Shown here piece after piece: positions 1,536 through 17,628 of a stretch of 33,641 nucleotides of DNA; within the stretch, counting starts at the first letter, position 1; the number at the start of each line of letters is the position of its first letter. The position numbers and the translations under genes are program-made. The notes beneath the pieces were generated by a model. It saw only the letters and a list, made by a program, of their open reading frames with translations, made no database searches and had not been told where the DNA came from. Source of the DNA: a virus; the IMG/VR virus record IMGVR_UViG_3300044833_000124, positions 1 to 33,641 of that record. One strand, given 5' to 3'.

Positions 1536-1952
1536 ATGCAACTAAAGAACAAATATAGTACAGAACATTCTAAAAAACTCCCGCCTTATGGTCAAATCAT
1601 CAATGCTTATCTGCAAGAATGTATAAAACTAAAAAGACACATCACGATCTACATTGGCAAAGGCGCTAAACAAGACGCTTATCATGACAAAATAAACGGG
1701 GGATTATGTATGTACTTACCGGCCGGTGAGAGTGTGAAAGATTATTTTTGGCCAATATATGGCCAAAGTATAATTGTTGATCATTGTGGTGACTTAACAC
1801 CGGCTATAGCTAAAAAAATATGTTTTTATTTTATTGAATTTCATCAACCAAAAATACTATGGCTGCAATATGATAACTCTACATACGACATTAATTTTTA
1901 TTTCGTTAATCCGATTCACGCAAATGATAAAAAGGAATTTATAAATGTCTGA
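1536..1952 (+). CDS. Hypothetical protein, 138 aa, upstream partner of the helicase
   Basis: I do not recognise this family. The start has a good AAGGATC site 10 bases upstream. The protein is mixed alpha/beta with hydrophobic strands such as HITIYIGKG, KILWLQYDN and DINFYFVN, and no signal peptide or membrane helix. Its last 8 bases overlap the start of the RepA-like helicase gene, so the two are translationally coupled. In plasmids and phages a gene in this place is often a replication accessory or initiator protein; here that is inference from position only. Confidence 0.7.
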   Translation: MQLKNKYSTEHSKKLPPYGQIINAYLQECIKLKRHITIYIGKGAKQDAYHDKINGGLCMYLPAGESVKDYFWPIYGQSIIVDHCGDLTPAIAKKICFYFIEFHQPKILWLQYDNSTYDINFYFVNPIHANDKKEFINV

Positions 1953-3018
1953 TATAAAAAACAAAGGCGGTAAAACTTTAGAGGATTTAAAAAAGGAGAT
2001 ACTAAAAGACGATCCCAACTATATTTTTCCAGAGAGTGAATATATTCATCAGAAGGAGAAACCGAAAGATAATGTTGTGAATTTAAAAGAACCTGTCGTG
2101 ATTCCAGCAAAATTGCGGCCACATTATCTTAGCGATTACTTAAAAATACCTATCGTCAAAAGTATTAATATATTAACTCCTGTTTTTCCAAACCAATCTA
2201 TCAATATGATTTATGCCGGAGCAGGTGTCGGTAAGACAACATTTGCATTAAATTTGGCTTATACAATTGCATTAGGATCTAACTTTGCAGTTTATCACTG
2301 TCCATTGCCGCGAAAGGTTTTGTACATGGACGCTGAAATGCAAAACGAGAAGCTCAATGAGAAAATAAATGAAGCTATAAAATTTTACGGTACCTTAGAC
2401 TATAGCAATAATTTATCAATCATTAATCGTGAATTAACTTTTCCTGAACCTTTCTACAAAATTGATCAAGAAAAATACCAAAAGATCATATTGCAACTCG
2501 TAAGGGAGGAGAAGTACGACATCATATTCTTTGACAACCTCGCTACTCTTACGACTATTGATCTAAATTCACCCACAGAATGGAATATTGTTGAAAATTT
2601 CTTCTTAACGCTAAAATTCATGGGTGTTACTGTAGTATTTTTACACCATTCAGGTAAAGGTGATGATTATCGTGGCACAACACGAATAATAGACGTACTA
2701 AACACTGCTATTAATCTCCAAACAGTAATACTCGAAGTGCCGGATGAAGCGCGAAAAAATATTCATCGGTTCAATGTTTCCTACAAAAAAACTCGAGACT
2801 TCGGCGGCCTCGATGCGGCCCCGTTCGAGGTGCAGTTAGAAAACGGCGTCTGGTCGCATAAATCTTCTCAAGACACGAAGATGGATAGAGCGGTCGAGTG
2901 TAGCCTAGCCGGAATGAAACAATTCGAAATAGCGCGTGAAATGGGCATAAGCCAGACCACAGTTAATCGCCTCTTAAAAAAGGCTGAAATGTGCGGCAGA
3001 TTAAAAAACACTCGTTAG
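1945..3018 (+). CDS. RepA-like hexameric replicative helicase (RecA-fold AAA ATPase) with C-terminal helix-turn-helix
   Basis: A 357-residue ATPase of the AAA_25/RepA type (RSF1010 RepA family), expected to form a ring and unwind DNA at the replication fork. Walker A is GAGVGKTT at residues 92-99, the second acidic motif MDAE is at 128-131, Walker B is DIIFFDNLA at 192-200, and the sensor-like HHSGKG is at 234-239, followed by RGTTRIID at 243-250. The last ~45 residues form a winged or simple helix-turn-helix (GMKQFEIAREMGISQTTVNRLLKKA), as in several phage RepA-like proteins. Start overlaps the preceding gene. Immediately downstream lies the dense repeat region proposed as origin, which supports a replication role. 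No primase or polymerase gene is in the window. Confidence 0.85.
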   Translation: MSDIKNKGGKTLEDLKKEILKDDPNYIFPESEYIHQKEKPKDNVVNLKEPVVIPAKLRPHYLSDYLKIPIVKSINILTPVFPNQSINMIYAGAGVGKTTFALNLAYTIALGSNFAVYHCPLPRKVLYMDAEMQNEKLNEKINEAIKFYGTLDYSNNLSIINRELTFPEPFYKIDQEKYQKIILQLVREEKYDIIFFDNLATLTTIDLNSPTEWNIVENFFLTLKFMGVTVVFLHHSGKGDDYRGTTRIIDVLNTAINLQTVILEVPDEARKNIHRFNVSYKKTRDFGGLDAAPFEVQLENGVWSHKSSQDTKMDRAVECSLAGMKQFEIAREMGISQTTVNRLLKKAEMCGRLKNTR

Positions 3019-3072
3019 TATTTTCGCTACCCATCCCCAAGGTTGTGTGAATAGCAGTTCATGCAACCTAAA

Positions 3073-3448
3073 ATTATTCATCCATATTGACTAATAATTG
3101 ATCAAATAATCTCTGCAACAATGTATATTAAAGGATCGCGCGCGCACGTAACCGCTGCCTCCCCTGAATAATCCTCATAAAACAGCCTCCCAAGCCCCGT
3201 AATCATTGGGTTTTTCATTATTCATACCTCATGAATAATCTATGAATAATTATTCATGTCGTAAAAATAATTATTCACCCCCTCCCAATTATTCACAAAT
3301 TATTCAGGGGGGTGAATAAAGGTAAGTATATGATATATATACATATATATATATATTATTCATTTATTTATTACCCACGCGCGAGAGCCTGAATAATCAT
3401 GAATAATGGTCAGTAAAGTATGAATAATGTTAAAAATGGGTGAATAAT
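3073..3448. repeat. Iteron-like repeat cluster, candidate replication origin
   Basis: The 487-base gap after the helicase gene holds 14 exact copies of the 8-mer TGAATAAT or its complement. They start at 3073(-), 3165(+), 3217(-), 3232(+), 3243(+), 3249(-), 3270(-), 3288(-), 3299(-), 3355(-), 3380(+), 3390(+), 3421(+) and 3441(+), with a 7/8 copy at 3313(+). Copies at 3243 and 3249 form a perfect 14-base palindrome. The one at 3288 extends into TTATTCACA, a match to the DnaA box consensus TTATNCACA. Such density next to a replicative helicase is typical of a phage or plasmid origin. Confidence 0.8.
3327..3360. other. AT-only stretch, candidate DNA unwinding element
   Basis: Between the repeat copies lies an almost pure alternating TA run (TGATATATATACATATATA and on). 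It sits inside the iteron cluster, where easily melted DNA would be expected in an origin. Its role is inferred from composition and place. Confidence 0.45.
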
Positions 3449-3505
3449 GATCTCTATGTGAGCGCAGATATTAATTAATGATCAACTATATGATATAGTC
3501 AAAAG

Positions 3506-3793
3506 ATGACGATCAAACTCTATCCTCCCTCGAAAATGGTCCATCCGACCTCAACCACAAAAATCACATTCTCGAAATCACCTGAAAAAAAGATCCTGCG
3601 CTCATGGCAGGACTACAAAGCAGATATTATTGCCATCATAACGCGAATAGAAGCTCTAGGATCAACGATCGACCATCAGTGGCTACATACCTACTGCTTA
3701 GAGTTAATAATGCAGCACAGGAAAGATTTGCCCGGTTTAAAGGCATTCATGGATAATCTCGAGATTGAGATGAGGCTATTCTTCAGCGATTGA
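3506..3793 (+). CDS. Hypothetical protein, 95 aa, after the origin-like region
   Basis: I do not recognise this protein. It is basic at the N-terminus (KLYPPSKMVHPTSTTKITFSKSPEKKILRSW) and then helical with an acidic end. No clear Shine-Dalgarno sequence precedes ATG 3506 (only a weak purine run), so expression from this start is less certain than for neighbours. The gene lies directly right of the iteron cluster and is followed by a terminator-like hairpin at 3819-3843. It could act in replication, but only position suggests that. Confidence 0.6.
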   Translation: MTIKLYPPSKMVHPTSTTKITFSKSPEKKILRSWQDYKADIIAIITRIEALGSTIDHQWLHTYCLELIMQHRKDLPGLKAFMDNLEIEMRLFFSD

Positions 3794-3906: not shown

Positions 3907-3946
3907 CCGTGAAACAATTTGCAAATATGTTTCACGGTTATCCACA
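3907..3946. promoter_or_regulatory. Inverted parS-like half sites next to a perfect DnaA box
   Basis: CCGTGAAACA (3907-3916) and TGTTTCACGG (3928-3937) are perfect 10-base inverted arms around a spacer that contains TTTGCAAA. Each arm holds one half of the parS consensus TGTTTCACGTGAAACA, but in inside-out order. One base later TTATCCACA (3938-3946) is the strongest known DnaA box sequence. The set lies in a 295-base gap between genes and extends the origin-like region. Alternatively the arms could simply form an RNA hairpin. Confidence 0.55.
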
Positions 3947-4043: not shown

Positions 4044-4088
4044 GATGTGGTAAAAATTAACACAAATGATTCACATCAAGGATTGATA

Positions 4089-4475
4089 ATGGAATCGAAA
4101 TATCGCATAGACGGAATCAGCGAACAGAAACATTGTGAATATTTTTACCAGTGGGTAAAGGATCATCCTAGGATTGACAAATATTTGATCAAGAATGTAA
4201 ATGAGGGTAAGCGTTCATGGTTTGTATCAAAATTGCTCAAATCTATAGGTTTTAAACCCGGAATTCCGGACTACCAATATGCTGAGCCGAACAATAAATA
4301 TTGTAGTTTATGGATTGAGATGAAACGAACCGAGCTTGTAGGTCGCAAAAACCCGAACAAATTTCAGGATCAATGGCTAGAAAATTTACGCGATGTGGGT
4401 CACTATGCAACTTACGCTTATGGCTATCAACATGCTATAGAGATATTAAGTGCGTATATCGACGGTCGGTTATAA
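4089..4475 (+). CDS. VRR-NUC domain nuclease (PD-(D/E)XK fold)
   Basis: A 128-residue stand-alone VRR-NUC protein. The family signature is clear: GFKPGIPDYQYAEP (about residues 49-62) gives the catalytic Asp after Gly-x-Pro, and LWIEMKR (about 70-76) gives the E-x-K pair. A conserved QDQWLENLRDVGHYATYAYG helix closes the fold. Phage VRR-NUC proteins are thought to be structure-specific nucleases acting on Holliday junctions or flaps during replication or packaging. A GTG at 4047 in the same frame would lengthen the protein, but ATG 4089 has an AAGGATTG site with the same spacing as the portal gene, so I prefer it. It lies just after the proposed origin. Confidence 0.85.
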   Translation: MESKYRIDGISEQKHCEYFYQWVKDHPRIDKYLIKNVNEGKRSWFVSKLLKSIGFKPGIPDYQYAEPNNKYCSLWIEMKRTELVGRKNPNKFQDQWLENLRDVGHYATYAYGYQHAIEILSAYIDGRL

Positions 4476-7626: not shown

Positions 7627-8017
7627 TATAAAAGATAAAAAGAAGAAACCTGGACCTCCTCCGATGCAATTACCATCTCCCGAAACTTTGATGGAAATGG
7701 CAACTCTTGGGCTAAACAAGCAACAAATAGCTTATTCATTAGCAATGAGTTATGAGACTTTCAAGAAGAGATTAAAAGAATCACCGGCCCATGATATCGC
7801 ATATCGCAAAGGTAAAGTTTTGGGCATACAAAAAGTCGCTAATGCGCTATTTGATAATGCGATTGGTAATAATAACTTCAACGCTCAGGCATTTTATTTG
7901 AGATGCAAGGGTAAGTGGAATGATAGAGTGCAAGTGCAACATAATCATACTCATAGTAACGCACGTGACGAATCTAACTCTATAGCACAAGATTATGCTG
8001 ATGCAAAAGATAGATAA
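7601..8017 (+). CDS. terS: Terminase small subunit
   Basis: A 138-residue protein directly before and overlapping (23 bases) the terminase large subunit. It has a basic Pro-rich start (KDKKKKPGPPPMQLP), then a helix-turn-helix (LMEMATLGLNKQQIAYSLAMSYETFKKRLKES) of the type that binds packaging sites, then a helical region (AYRKGKVLGIQKVANALFDNAIGNNNFNAQAFYLRCKGKWND) that is characteristic of phage small terminases. It should form a ring that recognises pac or cos DNA and feeds it to the large subunit. The start could also be ATG 7607. The exact terminase type is not clear. Confidence 0.85.
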   Translation: MSMNTKINNIKDKKKKPGPPPMQLPSPETLMEMATLGLNKQQIAYSLAMSYETFKKRLKESPAHDIAYRKGKVLGIQKVANALFDNAIGNNNFNAQAFYLRCKGKWNDRVQVQHNHTHSNARDESNSIAQDYADAKDR

Positions 8018-9569
8018 TAATGATCTCGTACTTGACCCGATGCATGATGATGATCTAAGACGTAAGTTAATGTTTGATTTTCTTACCTTTGCTAGATTCT
8101 TCTTTAAACGTAAAACTGGTAGACAATTTCAATTATCGCAACCAGACAGTAACGAATCTCACTTTCTAACTATCGCGCGTGAGCTAGAAGATATATTCAG
8201 ACTTAAACATACACGTTTATCTATTAATGTACCGCCTGGTTGGGGTAAGAGTGAACTTTGTAAGGCATTCGTTTGCTGGGCAATGGCTCATTATCCTGAC
8301 AGTAAGTTTTTGTATATATCACACAGCTTCGAGCTTGCGACATTACACACTGCAAGTATCAAGCAAACGATGTGTTTACCACTGTATAAGAAACTATTCG
8401 GTATCGATATCAGGCGTGATTCATCAGCCAAAGATTTCTTTATGACTGTCGAAAGTGGTGCGGTTGCAGCATTCGGATCCCAAGGTGGCATCACAGGACA
8501 CGATGCCGGACTACCGGGACAAAGTAGATTCACTGGCGCAATAATCATAGATGATATTCATAAGCCAGAAGATATTCACTCTGATACTATTAGAGAGCGT
8601 GTTAAGCGTAATTACTTTGAGACGATTGAAAGAAGATTACGATCACCTAATGTGCCAATCATATTAATAGGCCAAAGATTACATGAGGATGATTTACCCG
8701 CTCACATACTAGCTGGAGCAGATGGGCAAGAATGGCGAACCGTGATTATCAAAGCATTAGACGATGTGGGAAATGCTAGATATCCAGAAGTTAATCCTAA
8801 GTCTCAGTTATTAACAATGCGTGAGAAACAACCGTATGTTTTCGCATCTCAATATCAACAAGATCCTATGCCATCCGGCGGTGCGTTATTCAAAGAATCA
8901 TGGTTCCCTAGATTAGATCAAACACCAAATATACTCACGACATTCATAACTTGCGATAGTGCAGAAACAGAGAAAGAATACAATGACGCAACAGTATTTA
9001 GCTTTTGGGGTGTATATAATGTTCGAGTCAATGATAATGTTGTGGATAACTTGTATGCTTTACACTGGATAGATTGTGTTGAGTTACGTATCGAGCCGAA
9101 AGATTTACAGGATGAATTTATAGACTTTTGGTCCCAATGCATGCGTTATCATGTTAAGCCAAAATTCGCTGCGATAGAAAAAAAATCTACAGGAGTTACA
9201 CTGACTTCTGTATTATCTGAGATACAGGGATTAAGGATAATCCCTATCGAACGAACAGGGACGATTAATAGTAAAACTAATCGGTTTCTTGAGATGCAAC
9301 AATTCATAGCTAGCAAATTAATTACATTCCCAGCTACCGGCAAGCACACAGCAATGTGTATCAAGCATATGTCTAAAATTACCGCAAATAATGTTCATCG
9401 ATTCGATGACATCGCAGATACTTGTTATGACGCGATTAAAATGGCCTTGATAGACAGGATCATTATCAATAAAGAGTTGCAGCATACGAATTATGATGTG
9501 CTAGCAAAGGGAATATTTAATAGTTATGACTCGCAAGATCGATTGCGTAAAAAGGCTTATCGGAAATAA
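7995..9569 (+). CDS. terL: Terminase large subunit (packaging ATPase and nuclease)
   Basis: A 524-residue packaging motor. Walker A is PPGWGKSE at residues 80-87, Walker B is IIIDDIHK at 183-190, and a coupling-type ILIGQRLHEDD follows at 223-233. The C-terminal RNase H-like nuclease starts at FITCDSAETEKEYNDA with its first Asp at 321; AAIEKKSTGV and RFDDIADTCYDAI supply the later acidic residues. Length is normal for the family. It overlaps the small subunit. Unusually the portal gene is not next; almost 6 kb of accessory genes lie between. It is followed at once by the first pentamer array. Confidence 0.95.
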   Translation: MLMQKIDNNDLVLDPMHDDDLRRKLMFDFLTFARFFFKRKTGRQFQLSQPDSNESHFLTIARELEDIFRLKHTRLSINVPPGWGKSELCKAFVCWAMAHYPDSKFLYISHSFELATLHTASIKQTMCLPLYKKLFGIDIRRDSSAKDFFMTVESGAVAAFGSQGGITGHDAGLPGQSRFTGAIIIDDIHKPEDIHSDTIRERVKRNYFETIERRLRSPNVPIILIGQRLHEDDLPAHILAGADGQEWRTVIIKALDDVGNARYPEVNPKSQLLTMREKQPYVFASQYQQDPMPSGGALFKESWFPRLDQTPNILTTFITCDSAETEKEYNDATVFSFWGVYNVRVNDNVVDNLYALHWIDCVELRIEPKDLQDEFIDFWSQCMRYHVKPKFAAIEKKSTGVTLTSVLSEIQGLRIIPIERTGTINSKTNRFLEMQQFIASKLITFPATGKHTAMCIKHMSKITANNVHRFDDIADTCYDAIKMALIDRIIINKELQHTNYDVLAKGIFNSYDSQDRLRKKAYRK

Positions 9570-13658: not shown

Positions 13659-14414
13659 CTAAAAACCTTGTAACATATTAATTTTCAAGTAAGCAGAACT
13701 TGGTGCAGCGTTCGTGCCTAACGTTGGAGAATTAATATTAACAACTGATGAACTTGTATTAGCTAATGTTAATACATCGCCAGCCGCTAATTTCACATAC
13801 ACATCTGCGACAATCTCATTTGATTGTTGTTCAGGTGAAATGGTTTGATTAGCAAAAGTAGAACCAGGGACGAGAACACCATTTTTGAAGAGCGATAATG
13901 TCCAGACTGGTAGTGGGCTTGGGATTGGATTTAATGCACCGCAAATTCCGGTTGCAATATCATACCATCCTGCTTTGTTAACTACGATTTGACCATTAAC
14001 TGACGCATTAGATACATCAATATTAGGAGTTGCATAAATAGTATTTTCTAACAACACTAATCCACCAGCGAGATTTGTACCAGGTGATGCTGCCAATGCT
14101 TGATTTGCTTTGCTATAAACTTCTGCAAATTCAGCATTAGAGCCGAATGGAGGAGGTGGAGGTGTTGGATGTGTATCTCTGCAATTTACACAGCTTCCTG
14201 GGATACCTTGTGGACCTTGAATCCCCATTTCGCCTTGCAAACCTTGTGGACCAGACGGGCCAGCAGCACCTTGGTCACCTTTCGGTCCCATCGGGCCAAC
14301 TGCACCTGGCAAGCCTTGAATACCTTGTACACCTTGCTGACCTTGTACGCCCTGCATGGATGCTGAGCATGGGTCAGTTTTGCATTTACAATCATGATCA
14401 TAATCTTTTGACAT
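13659..14414 (-). CDS. Collagen-like phage protein with C-terminal jelly-roll-like domain, copy 1
   Basis: A 251-residue protein. The N-terminus is Cys-rich ([11 protein letters not shown]), then come 17 uninterrupted Gly-x-y triplets from about residue 22 to 73, then CVNC and a proline hinge ([10 protein letters not shown]). The C-terminal ~150 residues ([35 protein letters not shown] and so on) look like the BclA/C1q-type trimeric beta domain: [38 protein letters not shown]. It should form a rod-like homotrimer. Two such leftward genes sit together. They may be virion fibres, or exported decoys for host surfaces. Signal peptide: none. Confidence 0.85.
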
Positions 14415-14444
14415 ATTATCTTCCTTGTTTTAAGTAGTAGTGGA

Positions 14445-15155
14445 CTAGTCTGCTTTTATTAACACTATGGAGAAAGACGCTGAATTTATAGCGCAATTAA
14501 CTCCAAAGTGAGAATTATTTAAGATGAGCGGCGCATTAGTCATATTATAAAGTCCTACTTTATCGCCTGCATTCAGGTGGACCAAGAATACAAATGTAAC
14601 ATAATTATTCGCCTGCGATGATGTGATAGTCATATTCGTATCCTGAGATCCGGGGACCAAAACATCATTTACAAAAAGTGAAACACACCATGAAATTAAT
14701 GGCTGACGTAACGGGTTAATCGTGCCATTTATTGATTTTGTTAGTTGATATACACCGGCTTTATTTACAGTGATATCACCAGAAAGATTTGCTTGGGAAA
14801 CATCAATATTGGAAGTACTGAAAACTACATTTTCAAATAAAACTTGTCCGCCCTTTAAATTTAAACCAGGAGATGGTGCGAGTGTTTGTAGTTCTTGCGA
14901 ATAAAGTTGCGCGTATTCATTTTGGTTGCTATCGCAATTCACACATGCTCCAGGAATACCTTGCGGGCCAGTTTGACCCATGACTCCTTGAATACCTTGA
15001 GGTCCAACAGGTCCAGCACTACCTTGCAAACCTTGTGGACCAGCAGGCCCAACAGGTCCGGTCAATCCTTGGATACCTTGAGGTCCTCTTTGACCTTGCT
15101 CGCCTTGCATTGAAGCTGAGCATGGGTTTGGTTTACATCCGCAATCTTTGCTCAT
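14445..15155 (-). CDS. Collagen-like phage protein with C-terminal jelly-roll-like domain, copy 2
   Basis: A 236-residue paralogue of the gene downstream. It has the same order: Cys-rich start ([11 protein letters not shown]), 17 Gly-x-y triplets ending [12 protein letters not shown], and a beta-rich domain ([60 protein letters not shown]). Triplet number is equal in both copies while the triplet sequences differ, so length seems to be selected. A TTAAGGATAG site precedes ATG. It is the first gene of the leftward pair, with a 30-base gap to the other. The C-terminal domain is less similar than the collagen part. Confidence 0.85.
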
Positions 15156-15495: not shown

Positions 15496-17628
15496 ATGGA
15501 AGTAGCTAAGCGCTATCAAGATCAACTCGATAGAATTAAAACCAATGTACGTCGAGCACATGATTATTTTAAACCTAATTATGATCAGTACAATGATTTC
15601 AGAAAATTTGTATTCGAATCATCCCTCACCAATGATGAGATCATGCTCTTGGCTGGATTATCTAGGCCGCAGATCGAGTTCAATGTCTTAGAAGCATATA
15701 TTAGTCGACTACTCGGCGAATTTAGCAAACAAGAACCAGATATTGAAGTTTCTAGCGATGATCAAGAAAAAGTAGAGGCACTGACCGTGAAGGTTGTTGA
15801 GCAACATTTACGTCATACCTTACTTGATTCAAAAAATGAGCATACCAAATACGAAGTATATAAAGATCTATTGTCAGGTGGTTTCAGTGGTTTAAAAGTG
15901 ACCACAGGATATCCTAATCCTATGTCGATGCAGCAAGTCATCAATATCGATCGCGTCTATGATCCAACACTCTGTGGCTATGATCAGCTAGCAAGATTCA
16001 GTCATAAAGGTGACGGTAGATTCTGTTTTGAGTTGTTCCCAATGTCTGAAGAAGATTTTGAAGAAGAATACCCCGAGATAAACACCGACAACGTGAGTTT
16101 TAGACGTGACTTCGCCGGATTTAATTGGTCTTATCTAAATGATAATAGCAAAATTATTGTTGTGGCGGACTATTACGAGAAGAAGAAAAAGTTAACGAAG
16201 ATCGTGCAAGTCAGAGATGGTCGTGTCATGACCATGGATAAATATAATGACATGCTGAAGTCTTGGGGAGCATTAGAAGCACCACCCGCGATCATTGGCA
16301 AACCACGTACGACTAATCTCGAGAAAGTATGTCGGTACAGAGTAATAGAAAATATGGTATTGGAATATGTAGAAACAGACTTTAGCCATTTGCCTATAAT
16401 ATTTGTGGACGGCAATAGTATCATGCTGAAGACACCAAAAAATGGCAATGTGAGGCAATTCACTAGACCGTATGTCTATCATGCTAGGGGCGCTCAGAGA
16501 TTAAAGAACTACGCCGGTATAGCTTTGGCTAACGAGATTGAGAACACTGTACAGCATAAATTTATGGTCGCGAAAGAGGCTTTACCAAAGGAAGAAGATT
16601 TCTTGCAGGCTTACAAAGATGTGCAGAAAGCGAATGTCTTGGTCTACAACTCTATATATGAAGCAAACCCTGAATTACCTATCGCAAACCCTATACGTGA
16701 AGTCGCAAAAGTTCCAGCTCCCCCTGAGATTTTACAAGCGTTCAGTAGTAGTGATTCTCTGATACAAAATATTTTAGGTAGCTACGATGCTAGTTTAGGT
16801 ATTAACAATAATCAGTTGTCAGGTATCGCATTAGTAGAAGCTGCCTCGCAATCAAACGCTGCTGCCATGCCATATATCGTTGGGTATTTGCAAGGTTATC
16901 AAAGAGCTGCGCAAGTCTATGTTGATCTCATGCCAAAATATTTTACTACACCTAGGACAATCCCTATCTTAGATGAAGAGGGTAAACGTGATTACATTAA
17001 GATTAACCAGCAAGACGGTTTAGAGATGGACTTTGATACAAATGCATTGAATGTCATTGTCAAAGCCGGTGCATCATTCCAAGTACAAAAATCTAGAACT
17101 ATCATGATGGTAAAAGAAATGATGGGCATGTCACCATTGTTCGCGCAATTCATAGCTGAGAAAGGTTTGAATTTTGTCTTGGATAATATGGAAGGCAAAG
17201 GTATTGATCAATTAAAAGAAATGGTTGATTCATGGCTGCAAGAGTTACAACAACAAAAACAAATGGCACAACAACAACAGCAACAAGAAGCGCAAAATAA
17301 TCCTGCTGTGATACGCAATCAAATAACAGCGCAGAAGATGCAGCTAGATAAAGATAAATCAGATAAGCAATTCCAAGTTGATATAGCTAAGTTACAGCAT
17401 GAACAAGAGAAAACGATGGCGACATTACAGAACACTCATGATACGAACCAAGTACAGCTTGTTAAGGCTTTGACAGAGAGATACACGAAGAATATTGATC
17501 TGGCTATCAAGAAACACGATATACATCACAGACATTTAAAAGAAGCAATTGAGACACATCATAAACATATTGATCTTCATCATCGCGTGCAAAAAGAAAA
17601 TAAAGAAAGCAAACATGCTACGGTTTAA
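15496..17628 (+). CDS. Portal protein, P22 gp1 type
   Basis: A 710-residue portal, close in length to P22 gp1 (725). It opens with RYQDQLDRIKTNVRRAHDYF and contains LSRPQIEFNVLEAYISRLLGEF, where podoviral portals carry a similar stretch, then the crown and wing region (GGFSGLKVTTGYPNPMS, ARGAQRLKNYAGIALANEIE). About residues 575-700 form a long Gln-rich coil (LQQQKQMAQQQQQQEAQN, then LQHEQEKTMATLQNTHD and a His-rich end), equal to the barrel helix of P22. It forms the 12-fold ring for DNA entry, terminase docking and tail attachment. AAGGATTG precedes ATG. It starts the main structural operon. Confidence 0.9.
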   Translation: MEVAKRYQDQLDRIKTNVRRAHDYFKPNYDQYNDFRKFVFESSLTNDEIMLLAGLSRPQIEFNVLEAYISRLLGEFSKQEPDIEVSSDDQEKVEALTVKVVEQHLRHTLLDSKNEHTKYEVYKDLLSGGFSGLKVTTGYPNPMSMQQVINIDRVYDPTLCGYDQLARFSHKGDGRFCFELFPMSEEDFEEEYPEINTDNVSFRRDFAGFNWSYLNDNSKIIVVADYYEKKKKLTKIVQVRDGRVMTMDKYNDMLKSWGALEAPPAIIGKPRTTNLEKVCRYRVIENMVLEYVETDFSHLPIIFVDGNSIMLKTPKNGNVRQFTRPYVYHARGAQRLKNYAGIALANEIENTVQHKFMVAKEALPKEEDFLQAYKDVQKANVLVYNSIYEANPELPIANPIREVAKVPAPPEILQAFSSSDSLIQNILGSYDASLGINNNQLSGIALVEAASQSNAAAMPYIVGYLQGYQRAAQVYVDLMPKYFTTPRTIPILDEEGKRDYIKINQQDGLEMDFDTNALNVIVKAGASFQVQKSRTIMMVKEMMGMSPLFAQFIAEKGLNFVLDNMEGKGIDQLKEMVDSWLQELQQQKQMAQQQQQQEAQNNPAVIRNQITAQKMQLDKDKSDKQFQVDIAKLQHEQEKTMATLQNTHDTNQVQLVKALTERYTKNIDLAIKKHDIHHRHLKEAIETHHKHIDLHHRVQKENKESKHATV

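Follow-up and report, generated by a model that had tools for sequence, protein, structure and literature searches.

Comparison with described origins

In the IncQ plasmid RSF1010, iterons of 20 bases are bound by a separate protein, RepC. The alpha protein of phage P4 is a primase-helicase that binds its own origin and carries a winged-helix domain, and the phage has two cis regions, ori and crr. The lambdoid O protein is an initiator but not a helicase; it pairs in a type-specific manner with its iterons, which lie inside the O gene. In SaPI/PICI elements, the Rep helicase has its ori downstream (Ubeda et al. 2007, cited through PMC7581432; PMC6092414), and Cch2 of SCCmec, which has been tested biochemically, binds DNA through its C-terminal domain. 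In the PLE satellites of Vibrio cholerae, the DNA-binding domain of the RepA initiator and the iterons of ori co-vary and are swapped as a module (PMC8263062).

The locus considered here is part of a stretch of 33,641 nucleotides (the window), a linear IMG/VR virus record that carries head-closure genes, TerL (7995-9569) and a P22-like portal (15496-17628). No nucleotide-level match to the window was found among phage records. A cluster of short iterons (3073-3448) starts directly after a helicase gene, and our reading, which draws on the sequence and a structure model, is that this cluster is very likely a phage replication origin, with the helicase as its own initiator, which would read the iteron words through a C-terminal HTH.

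As in SaPI/PICI and SCCmec Cch2, short iterons lie directly 3' of the gene for a helicase; in those elements the helicase is an initiator that recognises them with its C-terminal domain, and here such recognition is predicted. The iterons begin 55 bases past the stop codon in the window and are found directly downstream in 41 of 71 relatives, and, as in SaPI/PICI, two iteron sets surround an AT-rich region. The helicases of those elements are of the DUF927 or D5/Primase_Cterm kinds, whereas the present one has an AAA_25, RSF1010 RepA-type core followed by a three-helix HTH; the carriers there are satellites or resistance islands, and here a phage with its own TerL and portal. The layout is that of SaPI/PICI origins, placed on a different helicase family, the RSF1010 RepA type, in tailed phages, and we found no description of such a helicase-HTH family in the open-access papers searched.

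The remaining systems share single features with the locus. The hexameric helicase core is common to RSF1010 RepA and the window helicase, but RepA (1g8y, 279 residues) is without the HTH that the window helicase has at its C-terminus. In addition, Pfam and PHROG show no DNA-binding protein beside the window helicase, and its small neighbor p138 is without an HTH and is swapped without a change of word. P4 alpha resembles the locus in being a helicase with its own origin-binding domain (predicted in our case) and in its short iterons in both orientations, but the window helicase has no fused primase, and there is one cluster, with no second cis region in this incomplete contig. Lambdoid O has the same kind of type-specific pairing of initiator and iterons; its iterons are intragenic, whereas the window cluster is in the non-coding stretch 3019-3505, and a cluster within the coding end of the helicase gene occurs in 0 of 71 relatives. 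PLE RepA shares the co-variation but is a RepA_N initiator rather than a helicase, with iterons of about 30 bases.

The iteron cluster and the AT run

The 8-base word TGAATAAT is present in 14 exact copies at 3073-3448. The minus-strand copies start at 3073, 3217, 3249, 3270, 3288, 3299 and 3355, and the plus-strand copies at 3165, 3232, 3243, 3390, 3400, 3421 and 3441; the first lies 55 bases beyond the end of the helicase gene (3018). An additional near-copy, TGAATAAA at 3313, matches the word in 7 of 8 bases, and we include it in the cluster, which is not assigned to a strand. In 2000 dinucleotide shuffles of the 487-base non-coding gap (3019-3505), the mean number of TGAATAAT copies is 0.15 and the maximum is 3, and the count of any 8-mer whatsoever stays at 6 or below. 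The initial annotation, which had reported fourteen exact 8-mers in both orientations, is borne out by this count and these shuffles. The whole window contains 20 copies (5.1 expected), of which the 6 beyond the cluster are scattered at background level. Alignment of the copies gives 8 invariant bases between flanks that are not conserved, which marks the unit as a stand-alone 8-base site rather than a long iteron of the plasmid type. The right border of the gap is a small plus-strand ORF, p95 (3506-3793), for which Pfam and PHROG searches gave no family match.

The TGAATAAT sites flank an AT run on both sides (about 3327-3372, no strand assigned; 93% A+T), which agrees with the AT stretch that had been placed amid the cluster. 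Based on a nearest-neighbor stability profile, we propose this run as the unwinding element; the thermodynamically weakest 40-mer of the entire 33.6 kb is at 3334-3373, and 20 of 28 related clusters include a point among the weakest tenth. The spacing between neighboring words of the same orientation, taken over the window and the related clusters for spacings up to 60, peaks at 11 bases (43 of 127), and a period near 11 persists at longer word spacings (p 0.002). Such a spacing is expected if helicase subunits line up along one face of the DNA. The window words form a rough dyad about the AT run, as those closest to it on the left are mostly minus-strand copies and those on the right plus-strand copies. 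Cluster symmetry differs among the relatives, however, so a picture with two helicase rings is not general, and bidirectional loading at the AT run is a guess. The GC-skew check proposed with the initial annotation finds no switch in this incomplete contig, and lends no support to an origin.

The helicase and its relatives

The helicase gene (1945-3018, plus strand) encodes 357 residues with a Pfam AAA_25 match (E 6e-21). The best solved match is RSF1010 RepA (profile E 1.3e-12), and a fold comparison of the helicase model (pLDDT 86.5) with this structure gives Z 24.1 over 215 residues; the profile, fold and Pfam matches together uphold the earlier call of a RepA-like helicase beside the cluster. 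The C-terminal three-helix HTH, which we propose as the iteron reader, spans residues 308-349 (2866-2991, plus strand), with helices at 308-321, 326-333 and 337-349 in the model and profile matches to the DNA-binding domains of the DeoR/SorC regulators 7bhy and 2w48. The codons of its recognition helix, SQTTVNRL (residues 336-343), are at 2950-2973 on the plus strand.

A single-sequence scan found no close relatives of the window helicase, and relatives were collected by three profile scans, which yielded a non-redundant set of 71 helicases whose 3' ends are complete. In 41 of the 71, a dense cluster that exceeds every one of 100 shuffles is present no more than 600 bases downstream of the gene, and the word varies by lineage; the conservation in relatives that had been named as a check is therefore found for the position of the cluster, and this conserved position supports the likely phage origin of the initial annotation. 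Clusters upstream of the helicase are rare (3 of 65); we noted them in two relatives, at about 4528-4840 in L150 and about 3638-3774 in L169.

The presence of an HTH is associated with that of a cluster (28 relatives have both, 8 the HTH only, 13 the cluster only and 22 neither; Fisher p 7e-4). There are exceptions in both directions: 8 HTH helicases are without a detected cluster and 13 clusters follow helicases that lack the HTH. Several of these 13 helicases seem to end in another kind of domain. In L173, L175-L177, L181 and L188, helicases without the three-helix HTH are followed by TGTCTCGC/TGTCCCG clusters, and these helicases are likely to have a reader domain of another kind at the C-terminus. 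The HTH helicases of the Omegavirus group (Baka, Courthouse, Wanda) were considered as a laboratory model from cultured phages and rejected; the gene next to the helicase encodes an HNH endonuclease and begins almost or entirely without a gap, which leaves no comparable downstream origin.

Exchange of replication genes

Phages with a TerL that is 50-75% identical carry different replication genes at the same place, and each of these is then followed by its own iteron cluster. An AAA_25-like helicase end precedes ACTTACAA x11 in L003, an HTH helicase precedes TGATTACT x12 in L036, and VapE-type helicases occur with GGTGTCAT iterons in L007, GGTGTCCC words in L010 and GGTGTAAC iterons in L073. 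This pattern indicates that helicase and iterons are exchanged together. Dense repeats in L084 (a low-complexity coding stretch) and L020 (a near-tandem array at a contig edge) were set aside. Downstream of the VapE-type helicases (L007, 47-2034; L010, 3-977; L073, 1569-3990), the three words share a GGTGT core, and a like pairing of reader and word may hold for the C-terminal domains of these helicases. As a separate observation, L103 (CP070751.1) has a 48% identical TerL within a chromosome of 5.2 Mb that bears the label of a Thermoplasmata archaeon and may be a mixed assembly.

Recognition helix and iteron word

For the 28 HTH helicases with clusters, we compared iteron profiles with protein segments by partial Mantel tests. 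Similarity of the words correlates with similarity of the recognition helix (8 residues; r 0.36), and the correlation is retained after control for the ATPase domain (partial r 0.354, reached in 0 of 5000 permutations), after control for both the ATPase domain and the remainder of the HTH (0.33, p 2e-4), and in the 23 non-redundant proteins (r 0.37, p 6e-4). Among the 28 helicases, the ATPase domain adds no prediction of the word once the recognition helix is given (p 0.25), and the rest of the HTH adds none either (p 0.18).

The individual pairings follow the same trend. The window helix SQTTVNR pairs with TGAATAAT, and the L147 helicase, which is only 34% identical to that of the window, yet has TGAATAAT x11 and the helix SQATVCR. 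Helices of the form SQ[TPS]TV[NH]R pair with TGAATCA (L141, L211, L212 and L213) or TGAATAA, SQS[KM][VI]FK helices (L036, L209) with TGATTAC, and SRPY[VI]NK helices (L143, L218) with GGTTAAC/T. Loci fetched later agree with prediction for SQPKVNR (TGAATCA), KESYVSK (AGGTTAA) and SRSAAGR (TGTCCCA). In this out-of-sample set, L370 and L372 have a helix in common. Across all 16 new loci the test does not reach significance (p 0.09); for the 11 with helix similarity of at least 0.5, a threshold set afterwards, the predicted word ranks high (p 0.006). The sequence evidence points to the helicase's own C-terminal HTH as the iteron reader.

Alternative readings of the cluster

The 138-residue protein p138 (1536-1952, plus strand), encoded by a gene that shares 8 bases with the beginning of the helicase gene, might act as a separate initiator like RepC of IncQ plasmids, binding the iterons and then recruiting the helicase, and it had been named earlier as a candidate binder. 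It is conserved in the slot before the helicase in several relatives, with homologues in L141, L209, L147, L145, L144, L036, L218, L229 and, more doubtfully, L222. The protein has no Pfam or PHROG match, and its model (pLDDT 85) is an alpha/beta structure with weak matches to common alpha/beta folds (Z at most 6.6); neither model nor profiles contain an HTH. In this slot, the p138 family alternates with a Toprim_3 primase (L142, L143, L154, L212, L213, L215), and the same words occur with both: TGAATCA with p138 in L141 and with Toprim in L212 and L213, and GGTTAA words with p138 in L218 and with Toprim in L143. Since the word persists through this swap, and a p138 homologue also precedes the VapE-type helicase of L007 with its GGTGTCAT iterons, p138 is an unlikely reader, and the tracking of the word with the helicase recognition helix likewise counts against it. 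We also considered p138 as a remnant of a Toprim primase and rejected this, as profile comparison finds no similarity; because of this, p138 may instead be an unrelated functional substitute for the Toprim_3 primase.

Short-word arrays also act as operators and centromeres, and the cluster could accordingly be a regulatory or partition site instead of an origin. The TGAATAAT sites do overlap weak promoter-like matches, but such matches are about as frequent as in shuffles (17 against 15.3). An origin would account for the location just past the helicase gene, for the weakest AT point and for the helical spacing, as well as for co-variation with the HTH of the helicase, so that we regard a regulatory or partition site as quite improbable.

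That host DnaA is recruited through the TTATTCA cores, as in DnaA-dependent iteron plasmids and as the initial annotation had suggested, is highly improbable: TTATTCA equals seven bases of a DnaA box, one copy does extend, as stated there, to a real box match (TTATTCACA, 3289-3297, plus strand, overlapping an iteron and judged coincidental), and the consensus box TTATCCACA is present at 3938, but the window has no more boxes than chance would give (4 against an expected 2.5), any TTWTNCACA box is present in only 5 of 28 related clusters, the conserved boxes of DnaA-dependent iteron origins are absent, and the relatives' words (TGTCCCA, GGTTAAC, TGTACACT) are unlike a DnaA box with the layout unchanged. 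Of the initial interpretation, the RepA-like helicase and the likely origin stand, while DnaA recruitment is not supported and p138 is an unlikely binder, and the original list of binders (RepA, the 138-residue protein, DnaA) can be narrowed to the helicase alone.

Proposed origin

The reading of the cluster as an origin is strongly supported, its recognition by the phage's own helicase is likely, and we infer that this origin is in actual use. Judging from the co-variation and the model, the C-terminal HTH of the RepA-type helicase would bind the 8-base words. With a spacing of roughly a helical turn to the left and right of the AT run, the words could bring helicase subunits together along a single DNA face. 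The AT run, which has the lowest predicted stability, would then melt, and helicase rings might load there in opposite directions and unwind the DNA for the host polymerase. In such a scheme the helicase would need no separate landing factor. The lineage-specific word would be kept by co-evolution of recognition helix and iterons, and through this co-evolution the helicase and its downstream iterons would form an exchangeable replication module.

More generally, the locus probably represents a widespread and undescribed family of phage origins. Their helicases, of the RSF1010 RepA type, would use a C-terminal HTH to read the iterons downstream of their own genes, by a residue-to-base code in the recognition helix that is simple enough for the word to be predicted from the protein sequence. 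Origin and reader would thereby be named for many uncultured phages, and the SaPI/PICI origin layout would have a second helicase family in tailed phages, on which it arose or to which it moved. The family would offer natural helicase/iteron pairs by the dozen, with DNA specificity and helicase loading swappable within a single polypeptide, as well as a sequence-only route to origins in metagenomic phages.

Other features of the window

A VRR-NUC-type nuclease, Holliday-resolvase-like, is encoded at 4047-4475 on the plus strand (phrog_824, E 1e-23; weak VRR_NUC). A single-sequence scan found no close relatives of it, and a nuclease of this type also follows the origin module in the relatives L003, L007, L010 and L036. 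Rfam and tRNA scans of the window found nothing. A second array, with about 10 copies of TTTGTAA(T) at a 10-base period, lies at 1153-1248 and immediately precedes an ORF on the minus strand (from about 1143 to 934), which is ribbon-helix-helix-like by eye and has no Pfam match; the array could be an operator of this ORF or a centromere-like site. Two adjacent paralogous genes of the Cro/C1 HTH type are at 23-328 and 345-575, and two minus-strand collagen-like tail-fibre genes are at 13659-15155, within a structural region that is otherwise on the plus strand.
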